From FCB group bacterium (GTDB lineage: Bacteria; Fidelibacterota; Marinisomatia; Marinisomatales; JAADGP01): 47,093 nt of DNA. Position numbers and translations under genes: made by a program. Under the pieces are notes generated by a model. It worked only from the letters and a program-made list of their open reading frames with translations. It was not told the origin of the DNA and ran no database searches. Location of the stretch: NCBI GenBank assembly GCA_013152315.1, contig JAADGP010000094.1:1-47093 (forward strand), written 5' to 3'. Below, in pieces: positions 29,359 through 44,875 of this stretch (its first letter is position 1; every line of letters starts with the position of its first letter).

Positions 29359-30558
29359 TCATTCATGCTGACGACGAATGAAGGCGGGGATTTCCAAATC
29401 CTTACCATAGATTACCGGGTTTGTATCATCAAAAAAGAATTTGGATGGTTTGGTTTTTCTTATCGGTTCAGTGTCTTCTCTATCATCAACCTTTTGATTA
29501 TGTAACGGCATATTCAGTTGTTCCGCCAAAATGCGCGTGTCGGCGGGACGCTTTGTCTGTACTACATCCGAGGAATGGTCGTGAGTTTCCACCGGCATGA
29601 CTTGGTTAAATCCGGTCGCGATTACGGTAACCGATATTTCCTCTTCCATTTGCGGATCAATCACAGCACCGAAGATAATATTGGCATCGTTACCTGCTTC
29701 CTCGAAAATAATGGAAGTTGCTTCATCGATTTCATGTAGGGTCAGGTTCGGACCACCGGTAATATTCACCAACACACCCTGGGCGCCGCTGATGCTGGCG
29801 TTATCCAGTAACGGACTGGAGATGGCTTGTTGTGCCGCCAGTACGGCCCGTTCCTCACCGGTAGCAATCCCGGTGCCCATAATGGCTTCGCCCATGTTCC
29901 TGGTTACGGTTTCGACATCGGCGAAATCGAGGTTGATCATGCCATGCACGTTGATAAGATCCGATATGCCTTTGGCCGCCTGATGCAAAATGGAATCCGC
30001 CAGCTGAAACGCCTCCGTTAAGGTGGTGTTTTTATCCACAATGGACATGAGTTTTTGGTTGGGAATTACAATCAATGTGTCGCAGGCTTTTCGTAGTTCC
30101 GAAATACCGGACAAAGCCCGGTTCATCCGCTTGGGACCTTCAAAGTTAAAAGGCAGGGTTACGATACCCACGGTAAGGATTCCCAATTCGCGCGAAATCT
30201 GCGCGATTACCGGCGCGGCTCCCGTTCCCGTGCCGCCTCCCATCCCGGCGGTGATGAAGGCCATGTCTGAGCCCTCAAGCATCGTCTGGACAGCTTCCCG
30301 GTCGGCTTCAACGGCTTCCCGGCCGACTTCCGATTTAGCACCTGCTCCCAGGCCCTTGGTCAAATTTTTTCCGATCTGGATCTTGTGCTCGGCCGCGTTA
30401 TTATCGAGATCCTGCGCGTCGGTATTGATAACGATAAAATCAACCCCTTCCATGCCGGCCGTGATCATCCGGTTAACGGCATTTCCACCGGCTCCACCGA
30501 CACCCACTACTTTAAGTTTAGCTTTCTGCTCTGCAAGACTATCGAACTCAAATAACAT
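29359..30558 (-). CDS. ftsZ: Cell division protein FtsZ
   Basis: A 399-residue tubulin-like GTPase that forms the division ring. The GTP-binding signature GGGTGTGAAP is at 107-116, and the N-terminal VVGVGGAGGNAVNRM loop is intact. The T7-loop NLDFADV, needed for GTP hydrolysis between subunits, is present. A variable linker of about 60 residues leads to the terminal peptide EIPAFIRRQ, which binds FtsA and other partners. GGAG precedes the ATG. It is the last gene of the dcw cluster, after ftsA, and is followed by a terminator. Confidence 0.97.
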   Translation of the reverse strand: MLFEFDSLAEQKAKLKVVGVGGAGGNAVNRMITAGMEGVDFIVINTDAQDLDNNAAEHKIQIGKNLTKGLGAGAKSEVGREAVEADREAVQTMLEGSDMAFITAGMGGGTGTGAAPVIAQISRELGILTVGIVTLPFNFEGPKRMNRALSGISELRKACDTLIVIPNQKLMSIVDKNTTLTEAFQLADSILHQAAKGISDLINVHGMINLDFADVETVTRNMGEAIMGTGIATGEERAVLAAQQAISSPLLDNASISGAQGVLVNITGGPNLTLHEIDEATSIIFEEAGNDANIIFGAVIDPQMEEEISVTVIATGFNQVMPVETHDHSSDVVQTKRPADTRILAEQLNMPLHNQKVDDREDTEPIRKTKPSKFFFDDTNPVIYGKDLEIPAFIRRQHE

Positions 30559-30603
30559 ATCCCATCTCCTTGTTTTTTAGTTTTTTATTGCTTCTATAAT
30601 GGT

Positions 30604-31875
30604 TTAGAAAAAATCTTTGAACCAGGTGGCAATTCTTGTTACCAACGTTCTGGCTGAAAATTCCGATCGGACCATAATGCTCATCTCTTCCTGGTGTAAA
30701 GACCACTGTAGCAGTCCGAGCGCGGCGGCGTAAAGGGGACTGTTTGCGACTTCAACCACACCGCTGATTCCTTTGGGCTTTCCGATCCTGACGCGCATTT
30801 TTAACACTTCTTCCGCCAAACCGGTTAAATTCTTCAGTTGGGCGCCACCACCGGTTAAAACGATACCGTACGTAAGTTTTTCACGAATATCCGCCCTTGA
30901 TATTTCACGCGCCACGAGCTGGAGGATCTCCACCATCCGCGCTTCCACATAACGGGACAATTCATGTTCGGAAACCTGGCGGGAAATGCCACCGTTTTTC
31001 ACCGGCAGTTCGAAATCCAACTCGGGCGATGCCATGGATGCCTTGGCGGAAGCATATTTCAACTTGATTTTTTCCGCATCCTCGGTTCCGATCTGGAGCA
31101 TTACCGCGATATCGTTGGTAATGCTGCTGGCGCCAATCGGTATTACCCCGGTGTGACGTATTCCTTCTTCATGATAGACCGTGATTTCCGTCGTCCCGCC
31201 GCCGATATCGACCAGGGCTACGCCCAATTCCTTCTCATCCTTATCGAGTGCGGATAAAGACGATGCCAGACCCTGGAAAACCAATCCGTCAACCACGATT
31301 CCCAGTTCCTCGGCGCAACTTGTTAAATTGGAAGCGGCCGAGGTGGCAACGGTTACCAGGTGTACCCGGGCTTCCAGTCGTCTTCCGGACATTCCCACCG
31401 GGTTTTTAATGCCGGTCATGGTGTCAATCACGTATTCCTGGGGCAATACGTGCAAAATATCACGATCAACAGGGAAAGAGATGGCTTTTGCCAGTTCCAG
31501 AACTTTTTGGACATCTTCCTTGCGAATATCCTGTTCGACCGGTAATGTGGAATGCCGGTTTTTTTGGATGGCAATGGCTCCCTGGGTATTAATCCCGCGA
31601 ATATGATCGCCGGAAATCGAGAGGATAGCGCGATTTACTTTTGTGTCAGCCATTGTCTCCGCTTCGGCTATCGCTTTTTCGATTTCTTCGATCACTTTAT
31701 CGCGATGGATGATGGAACCGTGTTTTATGCCGGTTGATTTTGCCAGACCAATCCCCAGGAGTTTTACTTCTTTCGATTGTGGTATTACTTCGCCGATGGC
31801 GCAAACGATCTTGTCGCTTCCCACGTCTATGCCGACGCGGATATTTTTGTCCTGGCTTAAATTCAGGTTCTTCAT
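30604..31875 (-). CDS. ftsA: Cell division protein FtsA
   Basis: A 423-residue actin-like protein that anchors FtsZ to the membrane. The first phosphate loop is GIDVGSDKI (15-23) and the second VDIGGGTTEI. The 1C subdomain typical of FtsA follows the first actin lobe (HVLPQEYVID). The last 20 residues include a short amphipathic helix (LVTRIATWFKDFF) suited to membrane binding. The start overlaps the ftsQ stop (ATGA), and ftsZ begins 45 bases downstream. Confidence 0.95.
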   Translation of the reverse strand: MKNLNLSQDKNIRVGIDVGSDKIVCAIGEVIPQSKEVKLLGIGLAKSTGIKHGSIIHRDKVIEEIEKAIAEAETMADTKVNRAILSISGDHIRGINTQGAIAIQKNRHSTLPVEQDIRKEDVQKVLELAKAISFPVDRDILHVLPQEYVIDTMTGIKNPVGMSGRRLEARVHLVTVATSAASNLTSCAEELGIVVDGLVFQGLASSLSALDKDEKELGVALVDIGGGTTEITVYHEEGIRHTGVIPIGASSITNDIAVMLQIGTEDAEKIKLKYASAKASMASPELDFELPVKNGGISRQVSEHELSRYVEARMVEILQLVAREISRADIREKLTYGIVLTGGGAQLKNLTGLAEEVLKMRVRIGKPKGISGVVEVANSPLYAAALGLLQWSLHQEEMSIMVRSEFSARTLVTRIATWFKDFF

Positions 31876-32633
31876 ACGTGTCTTTCCCGGGCGATTACCT
31901 GATTTTCGTAACGCAAGTCCAGATATGTATAATCGGTTAATTTTCTCAGCGGTGTTATCGATTTTTCGAATTCCTTTAATATCAATAGCTTATTCCATAT
32001 ATCATCGGATCCCAGAACAATACGGGTCGGTTCTTCGGATAAAATCAATTCGTATTCGTCCCGATGGTTCAGACGTACTTCAGACAAATTGCGGTATAAT
32101 GTCGGGTATTCCCGCCGGATGTGGGACACGATCTTTGTGGCCTCGATTACTTTTTGGGATAAAGCGTGTTTCCCGACCGGATAGAGTTGTTTTGCCGGAT
32201 TAAAATTGGAAAGACAGGGAAGCTGGAAATTGAGAGTCTTATCCGTTTCCGGTAAAATAACTCCTTCCTCATCGATCAGTACCATGGGAGGTATATTGAC
32301 CATTGCCACGGGTTTCCTTTCAACCAGCTCTATTTTAATGGTGTTGGGATAATGACGGCTTACGCGTATGGCCCGCACATAAGGATGAGCCGCCATGGTT
32401 GAACGTATCTCATCCAGCTTGATCTGAGCGATGGGGGTATCCGTAATATCGCCCAGCAAATCAAGATACTCCCTTGGTTCAATGATAGACGCCCCCTGTA
32501 TCCTGATTTGATTTATCGACAAATAGGAATTATAGTCAGCCCATTTGAAAGCGGTCCAGATCAACCCGATAATGAAGGGCACCAATACGCTCCCGATAAT
32601 CCACCGCTGTTTGTTATTGTTTTTCTTTTTCAT
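31872..32633 (-). CDS. ftsQ: Cell division protein FtsQ
   Basis: A 253-residue bitopic division protein. A short Lys/Asn-rich cytoplasmic end precedes one transmembrane helix (about 11-30). A POTRA domain follows (about 38-110, INQIRIQGASIIEPREYLDLL) and then the FtsQ/DivIB beta domain. FtsQ links early and late divisome parts through FtsL and FtsB. The gene overlaps murB and ftsA by four bases each (ATGA), strong evidence of coupled translation in the dcw cluster. Confidence 0.92.
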   Translation of the reverse strand: MKKKNNNKQRWIIGSVLVPFIIGLIWTAFKWADYNSYLSINQIRIQGASIIEPREYLDLLGDITDTPIAQIKLDEIRSTMAAHPYVRAIRVSRHYPNTIKIELVERKPVAMVNIPPMVLIDEEGVILPETDKTLNFQLPCLSNFNPAKQLYPVGKHALSQKVIEATKIVSHIRREYPTLYRNLSEVRLNHRDEYELILSEEPTRIVLGSDDIWNKLLILKEFEKSITPLRKLTDYTYLDLRYENQVIARERHV

Positions 32634-33550
32634 GAGCTAAATATTTCCGATTCAAATCCCAGTGTTTTTATTTCCAGTTCCAATTTGATGTTAAATTTTT
32701 CGAACACCTTGGTCCGGGCCAGTTTGATTAATTGCACCATATCGTTTGCGGTTGCGTGTCCATGATTGATGAAAAAATTGGCGTGTTTCGCGGAAATCTC
32801 CGCGTCGCCGATTCGCGTTCCCTTTAATCCGGCTTTGTCGATTAAATATCCGGCAGCCAAGTCGGGTCGGGGATTTTTAAACACACTGCCGGCGGACCGG
32901 AACCGCAAAGGTTGGGAGGCCTTGCGTCCGGAGCTGGCCCGTTCCTGTTTGTTCTTTATTTCCTCCGGTGAACCGTTTACCAATTCGAATTCGGCGGCAA
33001 CGATAATTTCATCCGGCGGGAAGGAAGAAGACCGGTACCCGAAGTTGATATCTTCAGCAGGTATTATCGTTTCCTGTCCCTGCCTGTTTATTAAATGTAC
33101 TTTGGACAGGCAGTCGGATATTTCGCTACCGAAAGCGCCGGCATTCATAATCAGCGCTCCCCCTAATGTCCCCGGTATTCCGATCAGGTTCTCCAATCCG
33201 GACAGGTTCCGTTTTATTGTCATCTTCACCAAATGGTCAAGTTTCACCCCGGCTTCGGCATACACCCGGTTACCGTCAAATCTCAGGCCGGTAAACGTTT
33301 TATTCAGCGCGATAATAATTCCATCGACGCCGCGGTCGGCGATCAGCAGATTTGATCCGGAACCGGCGAAATAGACGGGGACCTGGTTTTCATTCGCAAA
33401 GTTGAGCACGGAAGCCAGATCTTCGCGGTCCGCGGGTCTAACGTAAGCCGCCGCCGGTCCGCCAATTCCATATGAGGTATGACGGGCCATCGGCTCGTTT
33501 AATAAGCAGGTCCCTTTTACCAATGTTGCCAATGGACGTAAATCCTTCAC
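32630..33550 (-). CDS. murB: UDP-N-acetylenolpyruvoylglucosamine reductase
   Basis: A 306-residue FAD enzyme that reduces UDP-GlcNAc-enolpyruvate to UDP-MurNAc. It has the FAD-binding RHTSYGIGG and GSGSNLL motifs, the catalytic Ser222 in AGSVFKNP and the likely catalytic Glu293 near the C-terminus. The start is GTG at 33550 with AGGA four bases before; the GTG is needed because the first ATG lies too deep in the conserved region. It follows murC after a 72-base gap, the largest in the 5' half of the cluster. No ddl gene lies between murB and ftsQ. Confidence 0.94.
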   Translation of the reverse strand: MKDLRPLATLVKGTCLLNEPMARHTSYGIGGPAAAYVRPADREDLASVLNFANENQVPVYFAGSGSNLLIADRGVDGIIIALNKTFTGLRFDGNRVYAEAGVKLDHLVKMTIKRNLSGLENLIGIPGTLGGALIMNAGAFGSEISDCLSKVHLINRQGQETIIPAEDINFGYRSSSFPPDEIIVAAEFELVNGSPEEIKNKQERASSGRKASQPLRFRSAGSVFKNPRPDLAAGYLIDKAGLKGTRIGDAEISAKHANFFINHGHATANDMVQLIKLARTKVFEKFNIKLELEIKTLGFESEIFSS

Positions 33551-33622
33551 TTCATCCTGTTATTATTAATAATGTGGAGATCCCGGTAAAAAATTTTGTT
33601 TTGCCATTCATTAATGGTCTTG

Positions 33623-35014
33623 TCAATCACCTTTAATCTCCGTGCTTTGCAGGTGGTTGAAATAAGCATCGCAGTAGCGCCATATATTCCCCGCGCCGAT
33701 GGTAATGACCATATCGTTCGGCTGGATGATTGAATCCAGAGTGTGTTCCAGGCGATCCAGCTCCGGAAGATAGTACACAGATTTATGACCGGAGTCTTTC
33801 GCGGCCTGTGCCACCAGTTCGCCCGTGATACCCGGTATGGCGCTTTCCCTGGCCGGGAATATGTCGGTGACAATCAGGATGTCGCTGTTCAGGAAGGCCG
33901 TTGCGAACTCGGCATAAAAATCGCGGGTACGGGTATATAAATGCGGCTGAAACACGGCAATAATTCGTCGGTCCCACCCTTGCCGGGCCGCCTTTAAAGT
34001 TGCGCGTACTTCGGTGGGATGATGGGCATAGTCATCCACGACCATGACGTCCCGGGCAATGCCTTTTATTTCGAATCGTCGGCGAACACCTTCATAGGTA
34101 GCCAATCCCTTGGCGATGATGTCGAACGGGATTCCCATTTCCATGCCCAAGGTAACGGCGGCCAAAGAGTTTAACACGTTGTGTATCCCGGGAACCTGGA
34201 GTTGTATTGTTCCGATTTCTTCCCCGTGGTGATTCACGGTATAAGTGGAAGTGGCTTCGGAGAAGGCCGGATTTTCGGCCCGGTAATCCGCCTGCTTGGA
34301 AAAACCATAGGAGACAACCGGTCGTTTTATTTCCGGCAGAATACCCTGAACGCCGGGGGAATCCAGGCAAGCTATCAAAACGCCGTAGAAAGGTACCGAA
34401 TTACAGAACTGGGTGAAGGCCGCTTGCAGGTCTTTCAAATCCCGGTAACAATCGGTATGTTCCAATTCAATGTTGGTTACCACCGAGATCGTGGGGCGCA
34501 AGGCCAGAAAACTGCGGTCGAATTCATCGGCTTCGACGACAATGACATCACCCGCCCCCAGGAGGGAATTGGTGTCCAGCGTTTTAACCAATCCGCCGAC
34601 GACCAGGGTAGGGTCCATCCGGGCGGCCGATAGAACCGCGCCGATCATCGAGGTGGTGGATGTTTTCCCGTGTGTTCCGCCGATGGCGATACTGGTTTCT
34701 TTCACGGCTATTAATTCACCCAGCATTTCGGCCCGTCGGATGACCGGAATACCTTGGTTACGGGCGGCGACGAGTTCGGGATTGTCCTCCTTGACCGCAC
34801 TGGAATAAACCAACACATCGGCATCACCTACGTGTTCGGCCTTGTGTCCCTGGTAGATCTTCGCGCCCTTGGCGCGCAGGTTTTTAATGATTGAGGACTC
34901 GTTTACGTCCGATCCCGTAACTTCGAAATCCAGATTTAATAATAGTTCGGCAATTCCGCTCATGCCGATTCCACCAATTCCTACAAAATGAACTTTATTG
35001 ACTGAACGAAACAT
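33623..35014 (-). CDS. murC: UDP-N-acetylmuramate--L-alanine ligase
   Basis: A 463-residue Mur ligase that adds L-Ala to UDP-MurNAc. The N-terminal Rossmann loop GIGGIGMSGIAE (12-23), the ATP loop GTHGKTST (113-120) and the C-terminal DDYAHHPTE motif, typical of MurC, are present. The start codon shares a base with the murG stop (TGATG). Length is normal. Confidence 0.95.
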   Translation of the reverse strand: MFRSVNKVHFVGIGGIGMSGIAELLLNLDFEVTGSDVNESSIIKNLRAKGAKIYQGHKAEHVGDADVLVYSSAVKEDNPELVAARNQGIPVIRRAEMLGELIAVKETSIAIGGTHGKTSTTSMIGAVLSAARMDPTLVVGGLVKTLDTNSLLGAGDVIVVEADEFDRSFLALRPTISVVTNIELEHTDCYRDLKDLQAAFTQFCNSVPFYGVLIACLDSPGVQGILPEIKRPVVSYGFSKQADYRAENPAFSEATSTYTVNHHGEEIGTIQLQVPGIHNVLNSLAAVTLGMEMGIPFDIIAKGLATYEGVRRRFEIKGIARDVMVVDDYAHHPTEVRATLKAARQGWDRRIIAVFQPHLYTRTRDFYAEFATAFLNSDILIVTDIFPARESAIPGITGELVAQAAKDSGHKSVYYLPELDRLEHTLDSIIQPNDMVITIGAGNIWRYCDAYFNHLQSTEIKGD

Positions 35015-35574
35015 CAGGCTTCCGCAATTTCCAGAATATGATTAACAATAATTTCCACCGCATCCGGCTTTCCCAGGGATTTCGCATTTTGGGCTAATCG
35101 TTCCAGCTCGGATTTATTTTCCAACAGACCCAGGACCAGATTTTTTAAGCCCTCCGGGGTCAGGTCCTTTTCCGGAATCATCTTTGCGGCCGAATTGGCA
35201 ACCAGGGATTGTGCATTCTTCGTTTGATGGTCACCGGCCGCGCCGGGTAAAGGCACCAGGATACTCGGCTTGCCGCAGGCGGTAATTTCCGCCAGCGTTA
35301 GCGCGCCGGCCCGGGAAATAACCAAATCCGCAATGGCATAGGCGTCTGCCATGTGTTCGATGAACGCGACCACCCGTACCGTATCGGAATCGAAACCCGA
35401 ATAATAATTGTATTGACCACTGCCGGTTTGCCACAGGACCTGGACATCTTTCAGGTCGGGTTGTTCCAAAATGGTTTGCATGGTGCGATTCAGCATTGCC
35501 GATCCCTGACTGCCTCCCATCAGGAAAACGACCGGACGTTCCGGATTCAAATTAAACCGATTAAAGGCTCTCAT
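35014..35574 (-). CDS. murG: MurG, C-terminal part (frame-split gene)
   Basis: The C-terminal 186 residues of the glycosyltransferase that adds GlcNAc to lipid I to make lipid II. It holds the second Rossmann domain: the UDP-GlcNAc-binding GGSQGS, the SRAGALTLAE motif and PLPGAAGDHQ. The small ORF starts at an ATG that overlaps the TGA of the N-terminal part (ATGA). The true reading frame continues upstream to the A10 run at 35627-35636; joined there by one added A, the whole is a 367-residue MurG, normal for the family. The split could be an assembly error, a frameshift mutation or programmed slippage. If reinitiation at this ATG occurs, the two halves would lack the linking segment of about 17 residues. 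Confidence 0.9.
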   Translation of the reverse strand: MRAFNRFNLNPERPVVFLMGGSQGSAMLNRTMQTILEQPDLKDVQVLWQTGSGQYNYYSGFDSDTVRVVAFIEHMADAYAIADLVISRAGALTLAEITACGKPSILVPLPGAAGDHQTKNAQSLVANSAAKMIPEKDLTPEGLKNLVLGLLENKSELERLAQNAKSLGKPDAVEIIVNHILEIAEA

Positions 35575-36116
35575 GCGGTCACCATCCCTGATTTCCGGTC
35601 GGATTGGATTTCCTGTGAGAACAACGTTTTTTTTTTAAGGTATTTGCACGCATCGGAAAAGGCGATACAAACACGCCGGGCCTTATCCGCGAACATCCGG
35701 GTTGTCAAACCCGGGTATGAATTCTGTTCCTGAATCAGGATGGGAATATTGCTTTTCACCGCGAGTTTTAAGGGAATAGCGCTGGCATAGCCCCCGGTAC
35801 CGACGATTACCTGGGGATTAATCGTGTTAAATATCTTTTTTGCCAGGTAGTAGGAACGGAGTAACCGGAAGGGGAGTGCCAGATTGCGTGCCAGGGCTTG
35901 CGCGCTGAGTCCTCTTTGGAGTCCCCGAATGGGTAACAAGGCGTGGGCCAGTCCTTTTTTCGGAAGAATCCGGGCTTCAATACCGAATTTCGAACCGATA
36001 TAAAAAACCTGTGCTTCCGGTCGTTTCCTGATAAGCTGCGCGCCTATGGCCAGGGCCGGAAACAAGTGCCCGCCCGTTCCTCCGCCGGCGATGATTATGT
36101 TTGGTTTTTTCGTCAT
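35571..36116 (-). CDS. murG: MurG, N-terminal part (frame-split gene)
   Basis: The N-terminal 181 residues as read from the raw sequence, ending in an early TGA. They hold the first domain of MurG: the GGGTGGHLFPA loop, the GTGGYASAIP motif and EQNSYPGLTTRM. The last 16 or so residues (TLFSQEIQSD...) are out of frame. In the -1 frame the same bases encode NVVLTGNPIRPEIRDGDRM, the conserved MurG link that leads straight into the C-terminal part. The frame change therefore lies in the A10 run. The gene is preceded by ftsW with a 16-base gap and its ATG is at 36116. Confidence 0.92.
   Translation of the reverse strand: MTKKPNIIIAGGGTGGHLFPALAIGAQLIRKRPEAQVFYIGSKFGIEARILPKKGLAHALLPIRGLQRGLSAQALARNLALPFRLLRSYYLAKKIFNTINPQVIVGTGGYASAIPLKLAVKSNIPILIQEQNSYPGLTTRMFADKARRVCIAFSDACKYLKKKTLFSQEIQSDRKSGMVTA
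35627..35636 (-). other. A10 run at the murG frame change (slippage site)
   Basis: Ten T on the plus strand, read as AAAAAAAAAA in murG after CTT. In zero frame this gives Lys-Lys-Lys-Thr and a stop 23 codons later. A -1 shift, or one added A, gives Lys-Lys-Lys-Asn-Val-Val and the full protein. Runs of nine or more A are known sites of polymerase slippage, and A AAA AAA is a known -1 slippery string. No Shine-Dalgarno-like stimulator was seen upstream and no obvious hairpin downstream. Confidence 0.85.
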
Positions 36117-36132
36117 TATTTCTTCTTTGAGT

Positions 36133-37284
36133 TCAAATTTTAACCTTGGGACTCCAGCCTTTACGATGGATGATGGACCGTTTCGACTGGCTGATGTTTA
36201 ACAGGATTCCGATGCTGGCGAAATTGATAACCATTCCGGAGCCTCCGTAGCTGATCATGGGCATTGGTAGACCGGTGACCGGGAAAATGCCGGTGACAAC
36301 GGCCGCATTGACAAAAGCGTAAAGGATAAAACTGAAAGAGATTCCAATCGCCAGCATAACCCCGAACGGATCAGCACATTCCTTGGCTATTTTGATACCC
36401 CGTTGGAAGATGAACAGAAAAAGCGTCAGAATGAAGACGGTGCCGATCAATCCGATTTCCTCGCCGATGATGGCAAAAATAAAGTCGGTATGAGGTGTCG
36501 GCAGAAAGAGGTTTTTTTCCATGCTGTTCCCTAATCCCATCCCGAAAATTCCGCCGTTGCCTAAACCGATCAGGGATTGCGTTACCTGGTAACCGGCGGC
36601 TCCTTCATCGCTCCCGAAGAACCACGTCAGAATCCGTTCACGACGATAGGGCATGGCCAGCATCACCGGAACGGCAACGGTTATCGCTACCGCGGCCGTT
36701 GCCAGAAGATGAGGGATCCGTGCCCCGCCGATAAATAACATCATTCCGCCCACAATGGCCAGCATGGCCGTGGTGCTGAAATCGGGCTGAATAACAATCA
36801 ACCCTAAAATAACGGCTAAAATCACCAACGGTGGAAATAAACCGGAATAAAAATCTTTTATTTGATCGCGTTTATGATCGATGTACGCGGCCAGAAAGAT
36901 AATCAGTGCCAGACGCGTAATGTCCGCCGTCTGAATCGAAATCGGGCCGAAATACAGCCAGCGGGCCGGGGCGGATATTCCCTTTATCAGGAAAATCCCC
37001 TTGGTTAAAAGCAACAAACCAATGGAACCAAAAAGCAGGTGGGGAGCGATTGTTTTCAGTTTTCGATAATCCAGGAGGACAAAGGCAAATAACACAAGCA
37101 CGCCGACTAATAATCTTTTCAGGTGGGCTTGCAAAAAGCGCATATCGGTACGGCCGCCGGTTTCAAATATGGAAAGGGAAACACTGGCGCTGTAAAGCAT
37201 GACGATCCCGATCGTGCATAAAATGATTATCGCCACCAACAGCGGCCGATCGTACTTTTTTATTATGACATTTAAGTGGTTCAT
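36133..37284 (-). CDS. ftsW: Lipid II polymerase FtsW (SEDS family)
   Basis: A 383-residue SEDS protein with about ten transmembrane helices that polymerises glycan strands at the division site with FtsI. Family blocks are GYQVTQSLIGLGNGG (231-245) and PTPHTDFIFAIIGEE (262-276), the latter containing conserved Asp and Glu residues near the active site. The ATG at 37284 overlaps the murD stop (ATGA). A longer reading from 37311 would sit inside murD and is rejected. Confidence 0.94.
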   Translation of the reverse strand: MNHLNVIIKKYDRPLLVAIIILCTIGIVMLYSASVSLSIFETGGRTDMRFLQAHLKRLLVGVLVLFAFVLLDYRKLKTIAPHLLFGSIGLLLLTKGIFLIKGISAPARWLYFGPISIQTADITRLALIIFLAAYIDHKRDQIKDFYSGLFPPLVILAVILGLIVIQPDFSTTAMLAIVGGMMLFIGGARIPHLLATAAVAITVAVPVMLAMPYRRERILTWFFGSDEGAAGYQVTQSLIGLGNGGIFGMGLGNSMEKNLFLPTPHTDFIFAIIGEEIGLIGTVFILTLFLFIFQRGIKIAKECADPFGVMLAIGISFSFILYAFVNAAVVTGIFPVTGLPMPMISYGGSGMVINFASIGILLNISQSKRSIIHRKGWSPKVKI

Positions 37285-38660
37285 TTCTTTACTCTCAATT
37301 CCCGAACCCATTCCTTGAATTTTTTACCCCGTTCTTCATAATTATCGAATTGGTCGAAACTGGCGCAGCCCGGGGAGAGCAAAACGACGTCCCCCGGGCC
37401 GGCCAGCTCTTGGCTCAATGTTACTGCCTCCTTAAGACCCATTACGGGAATAGGTCTCACCGCATCCTCGAGCGCAGCAACGATTTTCTGTCGAGCCTGG
37501 CCGTAGGCGATTACGGCCTTTGTGTTGTGGGTATGTGGGATTAATTGGGTGAAATCGCCCCCTTTATCCTTACCTCCCAGAATTAAAATTATAGGTTGCG
37601 AAAAACTGTCCAGGGCAACTTTAACGGAATCCACGTTTGTTGCCTTCGAATCGTTGAAATAAGTAACACCATTAATATCGGTAACCTTTTCCAGGCGGTG
37701 CTCAATACTTGTAGTGGTAGCGCAGGCGCGGGCGATAATTTCTTTAGGAATTCCCATTACGTGGGCCGTGGTAGCTGCCGCAAGCAGGTTGGCGAGATTA
37801 TGGCGCCCCGGCAAAGCGATTCTGTCCAGGTCTATCAACTTTTCGTGCTGTCGGTCATGAATACAAGTCTGATTTATACTGAAGATCGTATCGCTATGCG
37901 GCTGTAGACTAAATGGTATCGTAGTTGCGGAATGGGATGACAGGTGTTTGGAAAGCACGGGATCGTCCGCGTTGTAAATGATATAATCCCGTTCCGTCAG
38001 GTTGCGACTCATATCCAATTTTCGATTCAGATATTCCTCGAAAGTATAGTGCCGGTCAAGATGGTCGGGAGAAATATTCAGATACACGGCGAAGTGGGGT
38101 TTGAAACGGTCAATAAACTCCATCTGGAAACTGGATATTTCAAGAATATAGGTTCGCAGGGGATCCGGATTCTGTAATTCCTCCAGCACTTTTTGTGAAA
38201 AGGGAATTCCGATATTACCGGCCATCACACCGTGAACGTTTTCCGATTGGCACATGGCGTTTAAAATGTTTACGGTAGTGGTTTTTCCGTTGGAACCGGT
38301 TACCGCAATGATGGGTGACTGGGTAAACCAACTGGCGAATTCGATTTCACTGACAATAGGGATGTCTTTTTGCCGGGCAATATTCACGATTTTGGCGTCC
38401 CTGGGAACACCCGGGGAAATAACCCATAAATCGGCGGCGTAAATGCGATCGCTGTGGTCGCCAAGTTCACCTTCGATGCCTAACGGAGAGAGCAGTCCCA
38501 GGTTGTGTTGCAGTTGCCGGGCAAAGCCAGGATCACTGACAAATACGTCGGCACCCACGTAATGCGCCAAGCGGGCGGCCCCCAGGCCGCTCCGGCCTAA
38601 ACCGATAACGACTACCGAACGGTCGGCGATGTCAATATTTTTACCGGTGGAAATATCCAT
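37281..38660 (-). CDS. murD: UDP-N-acetylmuramoylalanine--D-glutamate ligase
   Basis: A 459-residue Mur ligase that adds D-Glu to UDP-MurNAc-Ala. The N-terminal VIGLGRSGLGAAR (18-30), the ATP loop TGSNGKTTT (121-129) and the C-terminal NDSKATN motif identify it as MurD. The start at 38660 shares a base with the mraY stop (TAATG). A reading from 38747 would add 29 residues that overlap mraY and is rejected. Confidence 0.95.
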   Translation of the reverse strand: MDISTGKNIDIADRSVVVIGLGRSGLGAARLAHYVGADVFVSDPGFARQLQHNLGLLSPLGIEGELGDHSDRIYAADLWVISPGVPRDAKIVNIARQKDIPIVSEIEFASWFTQSPIIAVTGSNGKTTTVNILNAMCQSENVHGVMAGNIGIPFSQKVLEELQNPDPLRTYILEISSFQMEFIDRFKPHFAVYLNISPDHLDRHYTFEEYLNRKLDMSRNLTERDYIIYNADDPVLSKHLSSHSATTIPFSLQPHSDTIFSINQTCIHDRQHEKLIDLDRIALPGRHNLANLLAAATTAHVMGIPKEIIARACATTTSIEHRLEKVTDINGVTYFNDSKATNVDSVKVALDSFSQPIILILGGKDKGGDFTQLIPHTHNTKAVIAYGQARQKIVAALEDAVRPIPVMGLKEAVTLSQELAGPGDVVLLSPGCASFDQFDNYEERGKKFKEWVRELRVKK

Positions 38661-39763
38661 TACCTGATCTTGAAAGTGGTTAATGAGAATAATGCCAACA
38701 ACAATCCGATAATCCAGAAACGAATAACAACTTTGGTTTCCGGCCATCCTTTGAGCTCAAAGTGATGGTGAACGGGCGCCATTCGGAACAGACGGACTCC
38801 GGTTCCGTATCGTGTCCGGGTCCAGCGAAAATATCCGACCTGTAATATGACGGAAACAGCTTCCCACACAAACACGCCCCCGATGATAAACAGGAGCAAT
38901 TCCTTTTTTAACAAAACCGCCAGGGTGCCTAAAGCGGCGCCGGTGGATAGGGAGCCGACGTCACCCATAAAAATTTGGGCCGGGGCGGAGTTAAACCAGA
39001 GAAATCCCATGCACGCGCCCGCCACGGCGGCGGTAAAGATGGTGAGCTCGCCGGCGCCGGGTAGGTAAAGAATGTTCAGATAATCCGAAAAGTCCACACG
39101 TCCGCTTATGTAAGCGATGGCCGAGAATACCGTGAATGAAATCGCCAGCAAACCGGCGGCCAGTCCGTCCAGACCATCGCTGAAATTCACCGCATTGGAA
39201 GTTCCGGTAATCACAAGAATGATGATCAGGGGGTAGAACCAGCCGAAATCAAGCTCCAGGTTCTTGAAAAAGGGAACGGAAGTGACGCTTTTTATTTCCG
39301 CGAATTCGGGCGCGCTGAAAATCCAATAGCTGATGATGATTCCCAGCAACACTTGCCCGGTCAGTTTATAGCGGGCGATTAAACCGCGTTTTAATTTTTT
39401 CATCACCTTCAAATAGTCGTCCAAAAAGCCGATTAGTCCCATCCAGACCGTGGCGAAAAGAATAATTTGAACGTAAATGTTGTCCAACTTGGCAAAAAAG
39501 AGGGTGGGGAGGAGTATCGCAGCAAGGATGAGTACTCCTCCCATAGTTGGCGTGCCCTTCTTTTTCTGATGTGACGCGGGTCCCGTGGGACGGATTTCTT
39601 CACCGATTTGGTATTGTTCCAACTTGTGAATCACCCAGGGACCGATAAGGAAACTGATAATCAACGCCGATATGGCGGCGATGGCCGCGCGAAACGTAAT
39701 GTATTGAAATAAATTCAACGCCGACCAATATTCTTTCAGGGGATATAAAAAATGGTATAGCAT
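38660..39763 (-). CDS. mraY: Phospho-N-acetylmuramoyl-pentapeptide transferase
   Basis: A 367-residue polytopic enzyme that moves phospho-MurNAc-pentapeptide onto undecaprenyl phosphate to make lipid I. It has the GPASHQKKKGTPTMGG block (61-76), the Asp-rich NFSDGLDGLAAG (193-204), FMGDVGSLS (265-273) and the APVHHHFE motif (329-336). Length and motif order match the bacterial enzyme. It shares stop and start bases with murD and murF (TAATG on both sides). Confidence 0.96.
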   Translation of the reverse strand: MLYHFLYPLKEYWSALNLFQYITFRAAIAAISALIISFLIGPWVIHKLEQYQIGEEIRPTGPASHQKKKGTPTMGGVLILAAILLPTLFFAKLDNIYVQIILFATVWMGLIGFLDDYLKVMKKLKRGLIARYKLTGQVLLGIIISYWIFSAPEFAEIKSVTSVPFFKNLELDFGWFYPLIIILVITGTSNAVNFSDGLDGLAAGLLAISFTVFSAIAYISGRVDFSDYLNILYLPGAGELTIFTAAVAGACMGFLWFNSAPAQIFMGDVGSLSTGAALGTLAVLLKKELLLFIIGGVFVWEAVSVILQVGYFRWTRTRYGTGVRLFRMAPVHHHFELKGWPETKVVIRFWIIGLLLALFSLTTFKIR

Positions 39764-41106
39764 TACTTCCGGAAAACCTCCTCAATGATCGTTTCCATGG
39801 CCATTCCCCGGGAACCTTTGAATAATATTTTATCTCCCGCCTGCAGATCGGCTTTCAAAGCTTGCGCTAAATCCGACTTGTTTTCAAAATGCTCGTGGAA
39901 GGCTACGTTGTTAAGAACATCGTCGGTATAAACAGTATCTTTTCCGACGGTGTATACGGCATCCAGACCGACCTGATTGCATTTATTCCCTACTTGCCGG
40001 TGCAGTTCGGCCGACCCTTTGCCCAGTTCATACATGTCGCCGAATACCAGTATCCTTCGTCCGTTTCCGCTGAAGGCGTTCAAGTAATCGATGGCGGCCA
40101 GGGTTGATTCCAGGTTCGCGTTATATGTGTCGTCGATGACGGTTACCTGTTTTATGTCTTTAATCTGGCATCGTCCGGCGGGGGGGACGAAGGACAGTAT
40201 TTGTTCCTGGAATGTTTCCCAGGTAATGCCGTTGGTAATGGCAACCGCCGCCGCGGCGATGACGTTTTTGGCGAAAGACAGGTTGCGCGAGTTGGTGGCA
40301 ATTTCTTCCGCTTCGATGGTGAGGGAGATAGTTCCATCGCGGTCATGGTGCAGATCGGCGGGAAAGTCGCAATCCGGTGTAAGTCCATAGGTCACCTCGC
40401 GACCGACCCGCGGCAGCGATTTGACCCGTTCGTCAGCCATGTTTACGTAGGCCAAACCGTCCTTCAAAGCCTGAAACAATTCGCTTTTTTCCCTGGCCAC
40501 GGCCTCGATGGTACCGAATCCTTCCAGGTGAGCGGGTGCGATGTTGGTAATTAACCCCTGGGTTGGTTCGGTGATTTTACACAGATAAGCGATGTCGCCC
40601 GGTTGATTGGCTCCCATTTCCAAAATGGCGAAAGAGTGTTTCGCGTCCATTCGCAGTAATGAAAGCGGCAGGCCGATGGAGGTATTATAGTTGCCCTCGG
40701 TGGCATGGACATTGTATTGCCTTTGGAGCACGTGTTTGAGCAATTCTTTGGTTGAGGTTTTCCCGTTTGTTCCGGTAATCCCCAGGATCGGGAAGGTAAA
40801 TTGTTTCCGCCAATGATGGGCAATCCGGCCGATGGTGAGCAAGGGGTCCCGCACTTCAATTTGCTGCATTTTCCTGATGTTCCCGTCAGCGTTGGCGACC
40901 AGGGCGGCGGAACAGCCCGCGATTTCGGCGGTCTCGAGAAATTGATGTCCGTCGACGCGGTTGCCGCGCAGAGCGATATACAGGTCGCCCGGCCGGCATT
41001 CCCGGGAATCGGTGACGATACCGGTGACGGCCTCATGAAAATCGATTCCCGTTACGTCGGAAAAGATTTGGGCGAAGAGGGAAGGATTCGGAAGATCAAT
41101 GCGCAC
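39763..41106 (-). CDS. murF: UDP-N-acetylmuramoyl-tripeptide--D-alanyl-D-alanine ligase
   Basis: A 447-residue Mur ligase that attaches D-Ala-D-Ala to the UDP-MurNAc tripeptide. The ATP loop GTNGKTST is at 112-119, followed by EMGANQPGDI, the hallmark of MurF, and the C-terminal DDTYNANLES. The start is GTG at 41106 with GAGG nine bases upstream and an 11-base overlap with murE. A longer reading to 41202 lies in murE and is rejected. No D-Ala-D-Ala ligase gene is in the window, so its substrate must come from elsewhere. Confidence 0.94.
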   Translation of the reverse strand: MRIDLPNPSLFAQIFSDVTGIDFHEAVTGIVTDSRECRPGDLYIALRGNRVDGHQFLETAEIAGCSAALVANADGNIRKMQQIEVRDPLLTIGRIAHHWRKQFTFPILGITGTNGKTSTKELLKHVLQRQYNVHATEGNYNTSIGLPLSLLRMDAKHSFAILEMGANQPGDIAYLCKITEPTQGLITNIAPAHLEGFGTIEAVAREKSELFQALKDGLAYVNMADERVKSLPRVGREVTYGLTPDCDFPADLHHDRDGTISLTIEAEEIATNSRNLSFAKNVIAAAAVAITNGITWETFQEQILSFVPPAGRCQIKDIKQVTVIDDTYNANLESTLAAIDYLNAFSGNGRRILVFGDMYELGKGSAELHRQVGNKCNQVGLDAVYTVGKDTVYTDDVLNNVAFHEHFENKSDLAQALKADLQAGDKILFKGSRGMAMETIIEEVFRK

Positions 41107-42553
41107 GACAAAATTCCTCGATAATCTCAAAATCGGAATAGGGAATCCTCTCGCCCCGGATTTCCTGGTAATTTTCGCGTCCCTTCCCGAGAACAACAAC
41201 AATATCGCCGGGGTTCATTTCATTCAAAGCTTTTCGCAGGGCCTGACCACGATCTTCAAAAATAGTGTAACAGTCCCGGGTGAACCCTTTTACCACTTCG
41301 GCGTTAATTTGCGCCGGATCTTCGAAGCGGGGATTATCGGGTGCGACGAAACAACGGGTGGCGTAGGATTCGGCGATTGCCGCCATCAACGGACGCTTGG
41401 AAGCATCGCGGTCGCCGCCGGCGCCGAAAACAACCGTGATTTGACAGCCTTCGGGCGCCAACTTCCGAATAGTGGATAAAACTTTTTCGTAGGCATCGGG
41501 GGTATGGGCATAGTCCACGATAACCTTGTTTCCCGAAGGAGTGGTAATAATTTCCATGCGTCCCGGCACCACGGTACAGGCTTTAATCCCGGTTTCAATC
41601 GCCGTGGGCGGAAGCCCTAATATGTGAGCGGCCGCCACGCCGGACAAAATATTTTCCAGATTAAAAGAGCCGATCAGCGAAGATTCTATCTGATAACGGT
41701 GTTCGCCGGCCCGGATTTCACCCTTTATTCCGTCCAACGTCGAATCAATCCTGGTAAAGTGTACATCCGCTTCGGAGGCGATGGAAGTGGTTACCACCGG
41801 AGCCGTGCTCTCCGATTTAATGGCTTCCCCGTAACGGTCATCCACGTTAACCACGGCCGTGGCGGTGATGGAAAGCATCTTGAAGAGTTTGGCTTTAGCG
41901 TGAAAATATTCCTCCATGGTGTGGTGATAATCCAGGTGTTCGGGAGTCAGATTGGTATAAATCGCCAGGTTGAAATCCACGTCGGCCACCCGGTATTGCT
42001 GGAGGGCGTGGGAAGACACTTCCATTACCAGGTGGGTAAAACCGTGACGGACCAGGCGGTGGAACGTTTCCTGGAGGGCCACCGGCTCCATGGTCGTGAG
42101 GGTTTTTTGCCGGGGGAAATCCTCCGCGATCAGCCCCAGGGTGCCCATTTGCGCGGTTTTGAGCCCCGCCGTTTTCAGGATCGAGAATATCAGCGATGCC
42201 GTTGTTGTTTTTCCGTTCGTCCCGGTAACGCCGATTACCGTCATTTTGCGGGAGGGATGATCGAAAAATTCGGCCGCAATAAGCGAAGCCGCCCGGCGGG
42301 GGTTTGCTACTTTTATTTGGGGGACCGGCAAATCTCCCAGGTCACGTCCGTTGGTGATCACGGCTACCGCTCCCCGATCGATGGCCGTGGGGATGTAGTT
42401 GTGTCCATCGGCCCGCGTGCCGGGAATGGCGATGAACAGGTAGCCCGGTCGGACGTCATCGGTGTGACTGGTGACCCCCAGCACTTCGATAGCGGGAAGT
42501 GTTTTACTTGAAGGAGTTAAACCTGCGACTAATCTGTTTAAGGGCTTTTTCAT
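41096..42553 (-). CDS. murE: UDP-N-acetylmuramoyl-tripeptide synthetase (meso-DAP type)
   Basis: A 485-residue Mur ligase that adds the third amino acid of the stem peptide. The ATP loop GTNGKTTT is at 111-118. The specificity motif DNPR (406-409) is that of the meso-diaminopimelate enzymes, where lysine enzymes carry other residues, so the wall is probably of the DAP type. The start overlaps the ftsI stop (ATGA). Confidence 0.95.
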   Translation of the reverse strand: MKKPLNRLVAGLTPSSKTLPAIEVLGVTSHTDDVRPGYLFIAIPGTRADGHNYIPTAIDRGAVAVITNGRDLGDLPVPQIKVANPRRAASLIAAEFFDHPSRKMTVIGVTGTNGKTTTASLIFSILKTAGLKTAQMGTLGLIAEDFPRQKTLTTMEPVALQETFHRLVRHGFTHLVMEVSSHALQQYRVADVDFNLAIYTNLTPEHLDYHHTMEEYFHAKAKLFKMLSITATAVVNVDDRYGEAIKSESTAPVVTTSIASEADVHFTRIDSTLDGIKGEIRAGEHRYQIESSLIGSFNLENILSGVAAAHILGLPPTAIETGIKACTVVPGRMEIITTPSGNKVIVDYAHTPDAYEKVLSTIRKLAPEGCQITVVFGAGGDRDASKRPLMAAIAESYATRCFVAPDNPRFEDPAQINAEVVKGFTRDCYTIFEDRGQALRKALNEMNPGDIVVVLGKGRENYQEIRGERIPYSDFEIIEEFCRAH

Positions 42554-44547
42554 TTCAGTCCTATTTCACATATCGATCCGGGAGCGACTTTTGTTCCCGG
42601 GGGCGGGCTCTGCCATATAACCCGGCCGGAGCCATTGATTTTGGACTTCAGTTGTCTTTGTCTTAGTAACGAAACAGCTTTTCGCAGACTCATCCCCCTT
42701 ACCTCGGGTACGGTAATGGTTTTCCGGTTCCAATCCGGTTGATATAAGGCTGTGGTTTGCAGGGTGGTTATCTCGGCGCTGATCGGGCTCCCCAGGGAGC
42801 GATTATTTTCCGCGATTATCGGGTTATGGGGCGGAACGCTTTCCCGCGGCGCCGGTGGCGGCGGCACATCAAGGTTATCGTCCATATTAATAATGCGTTC
42901 CATAACGCGTTTAAATAATGGTGCGGCGCCGACTCCGCCCCAATGGTAACCGTATTTCGGTTCGTTCAGTACAAATACTCCCAGCAATTGGGGATTTTCA
43001 GCGGGGAAGAAACCAACAAAATCGGAAATGAATTTGGTGTTTGAGTAACTACCGTCGATAAACTTTTGGGCGGTACCGGTTTTTCCGGCAATCGACCAGC
43101 CGGCAATACGGGCGTTTGTTCCGGTGCCCGATTCGACTACTTTTACCAGCATTTGTTTCAAGGTGGTCATAACGTCCTCGGACGCAACCTTGCGGACTAC
43201 TTCGGGACGATCGGCGTAAATGACATTGCCGTTATTGTCCACTATTTGTTGTATTAACCGGGGTCTGATCAGGAAACCGCCGTTGGCAACCGCGGCATAG
43301 GCGGTGGCCAATTGCAAAGCGGTGACGCCTACTTCGTGCCCCATGGCCACTTCGGCCAGGGATATCCGGCTCCAATCCGACACTTTCCTTAATTTGCCCG
43401 ATATTTCACCGTTTAAACTGATGTTTGTCGGCGAACCAAATCCGAAATCCCGAACAAAGCGGTACAGGTTCTTTTCGCCCAGCGTTTCGGCGATTTTAAT
43501 CACCCCCACATTGCTCGAAAATTCGATTATTTGTGAGAAGGTCAGTAAACCGTATTTCTCATGGTCATTAATAAGAACATCCTTGTATCGATAGCTTCCG
43601 TTTTCGCAGTTGAATTCCCGGTCTAACGATACGGTGTTCAGGGCCAAAGCCGCGGTGGCGGCTACGATTTTGAAGGTCGAACCCGGCTCAAACTGGTCGG
43701 TAATTGCCCTTATTTTTTGATTTTCGGTTTCGTAGCGGCTGGGATTATTGGGGTCGTAATCGGGAACCGATGCCATCGCCAGAATGGCGCCGTCCTGGGG
43801 ATCCATAATGATGCCGATGGCGCTGCGGGCTTTTGTTTCTTCAAGCCGTTGCAATAGTTCTTCGCGAAGGATCGATTGGTATTCCAAATCGATTGTTAAT
43901 TGAATATTGGCACCGTCCACCGGTGGTTTTACCGGATAATTGTTTTTCGGTTGGACGCTTCCCCGGCCGGTCCGCTGTTTGATCACCCAACCGGGAATAC
44001 CCCGCAGGTATTTATCATATCGTTCTTCGATGCCGGTGATTCCTTTGTCGTCGACGTTGGTAAAGCCCACCAATTGGCCGGCGATATTCCCGTGCGGATA
44101 GTAGCGGCGGGAATTTCGTTCCACCACCAGGTTTTTGACCACGGAAGCGGGAATTTTGTTAAAAGTACTTTTCCTTAGATTCCGTTCCAGGTAAATGAAG
44201 CTTTTTTTCGAATCCAATTTGCGGAGATAATAATCGATCGGGCGCCCGGTAGCTTCATTCAGAGTTTTGGCCAGCGCTTGCTTATTTTTTATTGTGGCCG
44301 GGTGAACGCCGATGTTATAATGAATAATGTTGCGGGTCAGAGATGTGTTGTTGCGATCGTAAATATTTCCTCTGACCGCTGATAACGGTTCCTGGGTCTG
44401 TCCCTGTTTATATCCCCGCAGACGGTACGTTTCCCCGTTCAAAACCTGAACCTGGAATAATCTTATCGTCAGTCCCACCCAACTGAAGATAACCACACAG
44501 GAAATCAGCTTTATGCGGGAACGATATTTTAAATACGTTTTAGTCAT
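42550..44547 (-). CDS. ftsI: Division transpeptidase FtsI/PBP3-type with C-terminal PASTA domain
   Basis: A 665-residue class B penicillin-binding protein that cross-links septal wall. A transmembrane helix (about 15-36) leads to a dimerisation domain and then the transpeptidase. The active-site motifs are SxxK (Ser290 to Lys293, in PGSTFKI), SSN (344-346) and KTGT (489-492). The last 55 or so residues form one PASTA domain (VPEVRGMSLRKAV ... PPPGTKVAPGS), as in SpoVD-type proteins and many Bacteroidetes FtsI proteins. The ATG at 44547 is chosen over a TTG at 44559; it overlaps ftsL by eight bases. Confidence 0.94.
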   Translation of the reverse strand: MTKTYLKYRSRIKLISCVVIFSWVGLTIRLFQVQVLNGETYRLRGYKQGQTQEPLSAVRGNIYDRNNTSLTRNIIHYNIGVHPATIKNKQALAKTLNEATGRPIDYYLRKLDSKKSFIYLERNLRKSTFNKIPASVVKNLVVERNSRRYYPHGNIAGQLVGFTNVDDKGITGIEERYDKYLRGIPGWVIKQRTGRGSVQPKNNYPVKPPVDGANIQLTIDLEYQSILREELLQRLEETKARSAIGIIMDPQDGAILAMASVPDYDPNNPSRYETENQKIRAITDQFEPGSTFKIVAATAALALNTVSLDREFNCENGSYRYKDVLINDHEKYGLLTFSQIIEFSSNVGVIKIAETLGEKNLYRFVRDFGFGSPTNISLNGEISGKLRKVSDWSRISLAEVAMGHEVGVTALQLATAYAAVANGGFLIRPRLIQQIVDNNGNVIYADRPEVVRKVASEDVMTTLKQMLVKVVESGTGTNARIAGWSIAGKTGTAQKFIDGSYSNTKFISDFVGFFPAENPQLLGVFVLNEPKYGYHWGGVGAAPLFKRVMERIINMDDNLDVPPPPAPRESVPPHNPIIAENNRSLGSPISAEITTLQTTALYQPDWNRKTITVPEVRGMSLRKAVSLLRQRQLKSKINGSGRVIWQSPPPGTKVAPGSICEIGLK

Positions 44548-44875
44548 GTTCGTTGGCAAACAGATCCGGCTCGATATAGACGGTTATGGATTCCGGTTGG
44601 GCGGTTACCATTCCCAATTCCCGCTGGGCTTTGGTGGCGATAACATCCGCCCGTTGTAAATATTCGATTTTGCTTTGCAGTTCCTTAATGTCGTCAACCA
44701 ATTCATCCACGGTGGAATTTTGTATTTCGAGGGCCATGAGGGTTTCATCCACTTCGGTATAAACCCAGAGATAGGTAATCAGCCCGGTGATTGATAAAAT
44801 CGTCACCAGAAAAAAGGTAATGGTTTGCAGGTATTCTTTTTGTCGCTTGGAACGTCGGTGAAATTTTTTCTTCAT
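44540..44875 (-). CDS. ftsL: FtsL-like division protein
   Basis: A 111-residue bitopic protein. A Lys/Arg-rich start is followed by one transmembrane helix (about 17-38) and then a heptad-rich coiled coil (about 41-76) with many Leu, Ile, Asp and Glu. FtsL has little sequence identity between groups, so the call rests on size, topology and the position between rsmH and ftsI. The coiled coil pairs with FtsB in known divisomes. The start shares a base with the rsmH stop. Confidence 0.82.
   Translation of the reverse strand: MKKKFHRRSKRQKEYLQTITFFLVTILSITGLITYLWVYTEVDETLMALEIQNSTVDELVDDIKELQSKIEYLQRADVIATKAQRELGMVTAQPESITVYIEPDLFANEHD

Follow-up and report, generated by a model that had tools for sequence, protein, structure and literature searches.

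How an enzyme that is essential in peptidoglycan-making bacteria can be encoded in two reading frames is the question raised by the murG gene described here. The gene lies in contig C57 of a 2.08-Mb draft genome (163 contigs, about 48% G+C) from the phylum Fidelibacterota, that is, Candidatus Neomarinimicrobiota or Marinimicrobia. The window, by which we mean the whole stretch of DNA analysed, is this contig, 47,093 nucleotides long. No second murG was found in the 2.08-Mb genome.

The murG frame break in the dcw cluster

The dcw cluster occupies positions 29359..44559 of the minus strand and is formed by a presumed ftsI (42550-44559, minus strand, named by position only and not scanned), murE, murF, mraY, murD, ftsW, murG, murC, murB, ftsQ, ftsA and ftsZ. 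All scanned genes (murE, murF, mraY, murD, ftsW, murC, murB, ftsQ, ftsA, ftsZ) are in a single frame each, murG being the exception, in agreement with the initial annotation, which described the cluster as otherwise intact. The upstream neighbour of murG, ftsW (36133..37311, minus strand), is unbroken, and the start of the downstream neighbour, murC (33623..35014, minus strand), overlaps the murG stop by one base.

The whole murG gene (35014-36116, minus strand) consists of two frames meeting at an A10 run. The frame-0 part (35571..36116, minus strand) spans 181 codons, with a match to the GT28 N-terminal domain PF03033; past this domain it contains the lysine codons AAA AAA AAA, followed by a tail of about 17 codons and a TGA. 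The run itself (35627..35636, minus strand, T10 on the plus strand) is read in frame 0 as CTT AAA AAA AAA A-CG. The -1-frame part (35014..35634, minus strand) starts with KKNVVLTGNPIRP, continues to the end of MurG, is open for 206 codons and matches the GT28 C-terminal domain PF04101. A TAA of the -1 frame (35635..35637, minus strand) at the 5' edge of the run shuts this frame upstream of it. The TIGR01133 profile matches the gene as two hits. In the alignment with PDB 3s2u the N-part corresponds to residues 2-154 and the C-part to residues 157-356, hence the break falls in the interdomain linker. With one base corrected at A10, the frames join into a MurG of 367 residues. Thus the open reading frames and domain matches bear out what had been read from the raw sequence, namely a stop after 181 codons, a break at this run, and a full-length enzyme restored by one added A or a -1 shift. 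Both GT28 domains and the dcw neighbours identify the gene as MurG (GT28).

The linker between the run and the frame-0 stop (35575..35626, minus strand; VVLTGNPIRPEIRDGDR) is conserved in the -1 frame, and no canonical start codon was found in it in that frame. It is followed by ATGA (35571..35574, minus strand), the overlap of the two halves pointed out earlier, in which the frame-0 stop TGA overlaps an ATG of the -1 frame, a candidate coupled restart for the C-domain.

Recurrence of the break in the phylum

The search for murG covered 130 genomes of the order and 245 of the phylum, of which 225 phylum genomes gave a murG match; all compared genomes are consensus assemblies. Split genomes were recognised by a pair of partial matches that adjoin at one shared position of the profile, and their DNA was then read. 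The murG break sits at an identical codon in 37 of the 225 genomes (that of the window and 36 others), belonging to ten family-level groups (f1, f3, f4, f5, f8, f9, f16, f19, f24, f25). The initial annotation had suggested checking whether related genomes keep at least nine A at this codon, and these do: the run is A9 in 9 genomes, A10 in 26 and A11 in 2. In all 37, three in-frame AAA codons of frame 0 lie inside the run, the C-domain is in the -1 frame, and the correction needed is one extra A or a -1 shift; an opposite shift or a run shorter than nine A was seen in none of them.

The genome of the window contains only three A10 runs, the expected number being about 70-80 under first- to third-order Markov models of the window and about 6 from base composition alone. 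Of the two others, one is intergenic (C15) and one is in frame in a FliF-like linker (C97). The latter (L260, G000:C97:14083-14092) is the sole other coding A10; the linker is Lys/Pro/Glu-rich, and a FliG-like gene comes after it (both named by eye). Among the runs of A9 and longer in this genome, only that of murG parts two long frames of one gene. In the relative G009, with 0.79 Mb covered, murG has the only A10 and is the only gene broken at a run of length eight or above; a single A8 exception looks like a normal boundary between two genes, complete with a ribosome-binding site. General homopolymer trouble in these genomes was rejected, as other long runs in G009 and in the genome of the window leave genes unbroken. 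The rarity of A10 in the genome, the absence there of any other gene break at A9 or longer, and the recurrence at the same codon place the murG break beyond chance.

An assembly or sequencing error in the homopolymer, one of the options considered initially, would be in keeping with a draft of 163 contigs. However, the same break, constant in direction, is found in 36 further genomes, including records of different projects (SCKK01000005.1, JADFPG010000029.1, DKQU01000042.1); in-frame A9 and A10 runs exist in relatives, and the other runs of A9 and longer in the same genome leave genes intact. Hence this option is rejected as extremely improbable.

The wall biology of the phylum is unusual: some members have lost peptidoglycan synthesis and live on muropeptides, Fidelibacter multiformis on imported ones (PMC11652737), which would speak for murG decaying into a pseudogene. 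Yet the dcw cluster is complete, and every split genome tested for murA has it in a single frame; a handful of partial hits come from contig edges or from pieces of one and the same frame. The conserved C-domain motifs are kept, and both halves are under purifying selection, with substitutions at codon positions 1/2/3 distributed as 86/36/350 in the N half and 84/51/203 in the C half, that is, 350 of 472 and 203 of 338 at the third position. Decay can hardly be entertained against these data; the initial annotation, too, held loss of murG to be unlikely. Muropeptide dependence as a cause of a relaxed murG was rejected as well, since murA is found in every split genome tested.

The unbroken rows of the tree set (n=78) comprise 69 with runs of at most eight A (66 from the phylum and three outgroup rows) and nine with an in-frame A9 or A10, hence the A-run by itself does not imply programming. 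Seven genomes of g21 in f9 (L018, L023, L025, L029, L146, L159, L161) carry an in-frame A9 or A10 at the same codon, where slippage would lower the amount of full-length MurG, not make it. In f15, the murG of L166 (G065:C2:129835-130873) is in three pieces with the breaks away from the A-run, a possible error or decay. Four genomes rated more than 90% complete (G002, G011, G040, G043) are without a murG match, which may be a gap or may reflect lineages without lipid II synthesis.

On the tree there are about nine changes between the split and the unbroken state. A phase-variable locus, with the genomic run toggling in and out of frame as in surface genes, would draw on the mutability of long A-runs, and one genus indeed has two states, G008 (L024) with A10 in frame and G056 (L049) with A9 out of frame. 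A near pair is also found in f25, murG being in frame in g66 and out of frame in g67. But random toggling would mix the states, whereas in g9, g30, g25 and g39 murG is out of frame in every member genome in the tree: it is split in 8/8 genomes of g9 and g30 together and in 6/6 of g39, at a protein divergence well above zero. Moreover, MurG is essential where peptidoglycan is made, and the split genomes tested have murA. Phase variation is thus very unlikely. Indels are frequent mutations in long runs, and one added A would restore the murG frame. Several genera being uniformly out of frame despite such easy reversion, the split state is, in large marine populations, probably harmless and may be useful.

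Proposed passage of the run and possible restart at the stop

Fourteen pairings of split genomes, in which some rows occur twice, served to count substitutions in the 39 bases around GNP. They number 14/6/42 on positions 1/2/3 of the -1-frame codons (p=4e-8), and in most genomes used these bases fall between the run and the frame-0 stop. The third-position excess indicates that the stretch from the run to the stop is translated in the -1 frame and is under selection. In the window, the TAA at the run and the lack of a canonical start before the ATG at 35574 mean that the GNPIR segment is reached only via the run. We infer that full-length MurG is made and selected, through passage of the run.

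From the comparison of genomes, we consider it probable that the murG break marks a conserved site of recoding within an essential gene, slippage of RNA polymerase being likelier than a -1 shift of the ribosome. The DNA is one base short in an A9-A11 run at the linker between the MurG domains, and standard reading yields an N-domain fragment ending shortly past the run. Most likely, RNA polymerase would stutter on the T-run template and add one A, joining the frames into the 367-residue enzyme; alternatively, the ribosome would step back one base on the A-run, with the same result. Of the options listed initially, programmed or tolerated slippage is supported by the comparative data, run length favouring polymerase over ribosome.

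The run exceeds the seven A needed for a ribosomal heptamer by two in every lineage. In many bacteria, avoidance of such runs sets in at nine, a pattern read as selection against transcriptional slippage (PMC1088944). All runs having at least nine A though seven suffice for the heptamer, RNA polymerase is favoured. As expected for transcriptional slippage, about nine or more A stand at the junction in 37/37 split genomes, and both the run and the break are conserved among orthologues. Both shift directions, the GeneTack criterion, were not observed among orthologues, since only -1/+1A occurs in 37/37, and with about nine state changes on the tree this is a weak test. The GeneTack authors regard a constant direction as a sign of ribosomal shifting rather than of transcriptional slippage (PMC3711429); the few state changes leave this rule little power for murG.

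By that rule, the constant direction would speak for -1 ribosomal frameshifting or sliding on A AAA AAA of a faithful mRNA. The heptamer A_AAA_AAA (of the type X_XXY_YYZ) is in register at every site, a poly-A gene with a -1 shift gave 63, 40 and 10% frameshifting in E. coli reporters with 11, 9 and 7 As (PMC3711429), and E. coli ribosomes slide in vitro on A11 and longer (PMC4363877). On the other hand, the shortest run has nine A where A7 would be enough, and all lineages retain two further A's on the 5' side, even though lysine at that place is uncommon in unbroken relatives. Neither a Shine-Dalgarno-like signal upstream nor downstream structure above background was seen: anti-Shine-Dalgarno energies and folding z-scores of pseudoknot-free structures are much alike in split genomes and unbroken relatives, with a single folding outlier, L153 (z -3.0). 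Some -1 frameshift genes are without stimulators. Overall, we regard the ribosomal shift as a possible but not the favoured explanation. Slippage itself would be the way past the run, with RNA polymerase the likelier slipping machine, the ribosome a less likely candidate, and both could act.

The start codon at the frame-0 stop suggests, as far as the sequences go, a coupled restart. Within -1..+8 of the frame-0 stop, 30/37 split and 6/76 unbroken genomes have a -1-frame ATG, which in the split ones falls at several different codons. A frame-0 TGA always makes an NTG in the -1 frame, so the overlap is partly built in. After tree correction, 3.4 independent pairs are for and 1.1 against, which is not significant, as expected of trait correlations with few independent origins (nine state changes). 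The restart codon as an independent adaptive signal was rejected, the raw enrichment being strong and the independent pairs not significant. In L171, L173 and L178 (f25) the frame-0 stop is 3 bases after the run and an ATG is 5 bases on, just before GNP; restart there would yield nearly the entire C-domain, including the linker.

The restarted product would contain the entire PF04101 domain, and Alg14/Alg13 and EpsE/EpsF are homologues that exist naturally in two pieces (PMC8993221), so that N- and C-domains made by termination-reinitiation at ATGA, with no frameshift, could form a two-piece MurG. Together with the ATG enrichment this agrees with the reinitiation route raised in the initial annotation. 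However, the GNPxR region ahead of the restart shows -1-frame conservation, of which two separate pieces would make no use, and the A-run would be left without a role. Hence reinitiation as the sole route is contradicted by the shifted-frame conservation upstream of the ATG, and a two-piece MurG is improbable; as an event added to slippage, restart is plausible. It might add a separate C-domain, and might also keep ribosomes on the operon mRNA, sparing polarity from murC to ftsZ. We would give rather little credence to a scheme in which one murG, divided at the boundary of the GT-B domains, makes three proteins, the N-domain by standard reading, the C-domain by termination-reinitiation at the overlapping ATG and the full-length enzyme by slippage, their ratio setting lipid II synthesis; if true, this ratio would act in a phylum some of whose members rely on muropeptide import.

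Judged from the compared genomes, murG probably belongs among the poly-A recoding genes; it encodes an essential enzyme, and its break recurs across the phylum. A literature search of limited reach found no description of poly-A recoding for murG. If slippage on the run is the correct explanation, an essential peptidoglycan enzyme depends on it, and lipid II capacity is tied to the fidelity of polymerase or ribosome. Gene callers split such a murG and would report it as broken or missing. The near pairs G008/G056 and g66/g67 allow one to ask whether a slippage-dependent MurG is selected or merely tolerated.

Comparison with known systems

Full-length RF2, the product of prfB, requires a +1 frameshift. 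In prfB, as proposed for murG, the full-length product depends on recoding; unlike in murG, the shift is +1 and ribosomal, autoregulated by the product, with a different signal.

The closest likeness in the run itself is dnaX of Thermus thermophilus and the Chlorobi, where a coding-strand run of A9-A10 changes the frame, in the Chlorobi in a two-ORF form as in murG (PMC3711429, PMC1088944). In T. thermophilus, however, ordinary reading already gives the full-length protein, which slippage cuts short, while murG would need slippage for the full-length enzyme. The magnesium chelatase (chlD) poly-A genes share the -1 direction, runs of A7-A11 and conservation over genera, and in E. coli reporters their shift becomes more efficient as the run lengthens (PMC3711429, PMC9227772). 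They differ in that both products are proposed subunits, and in the gene and the lineages concerned.

Genes of Buchnera and Blochmannia, including cell-wall genes, are rescued by polymerase slippage at poly-A, with 12-50% of transcripts corrected (reviewed in PMC5009743). These are AT-rich endosymbionts with many long runs, whereas here G+C is about 48%, A10 is very rare, and one site recurs across families. Finally, in Alg14/Alg13 and EpsE/EpsF the N- and C-domains of a GT-B enzyme resembling MurG are found on two different chains (PMC8993221). Those are separate genes, whereas the shifted frame of murG is conserved across the joint, which points to use of the fused protein.
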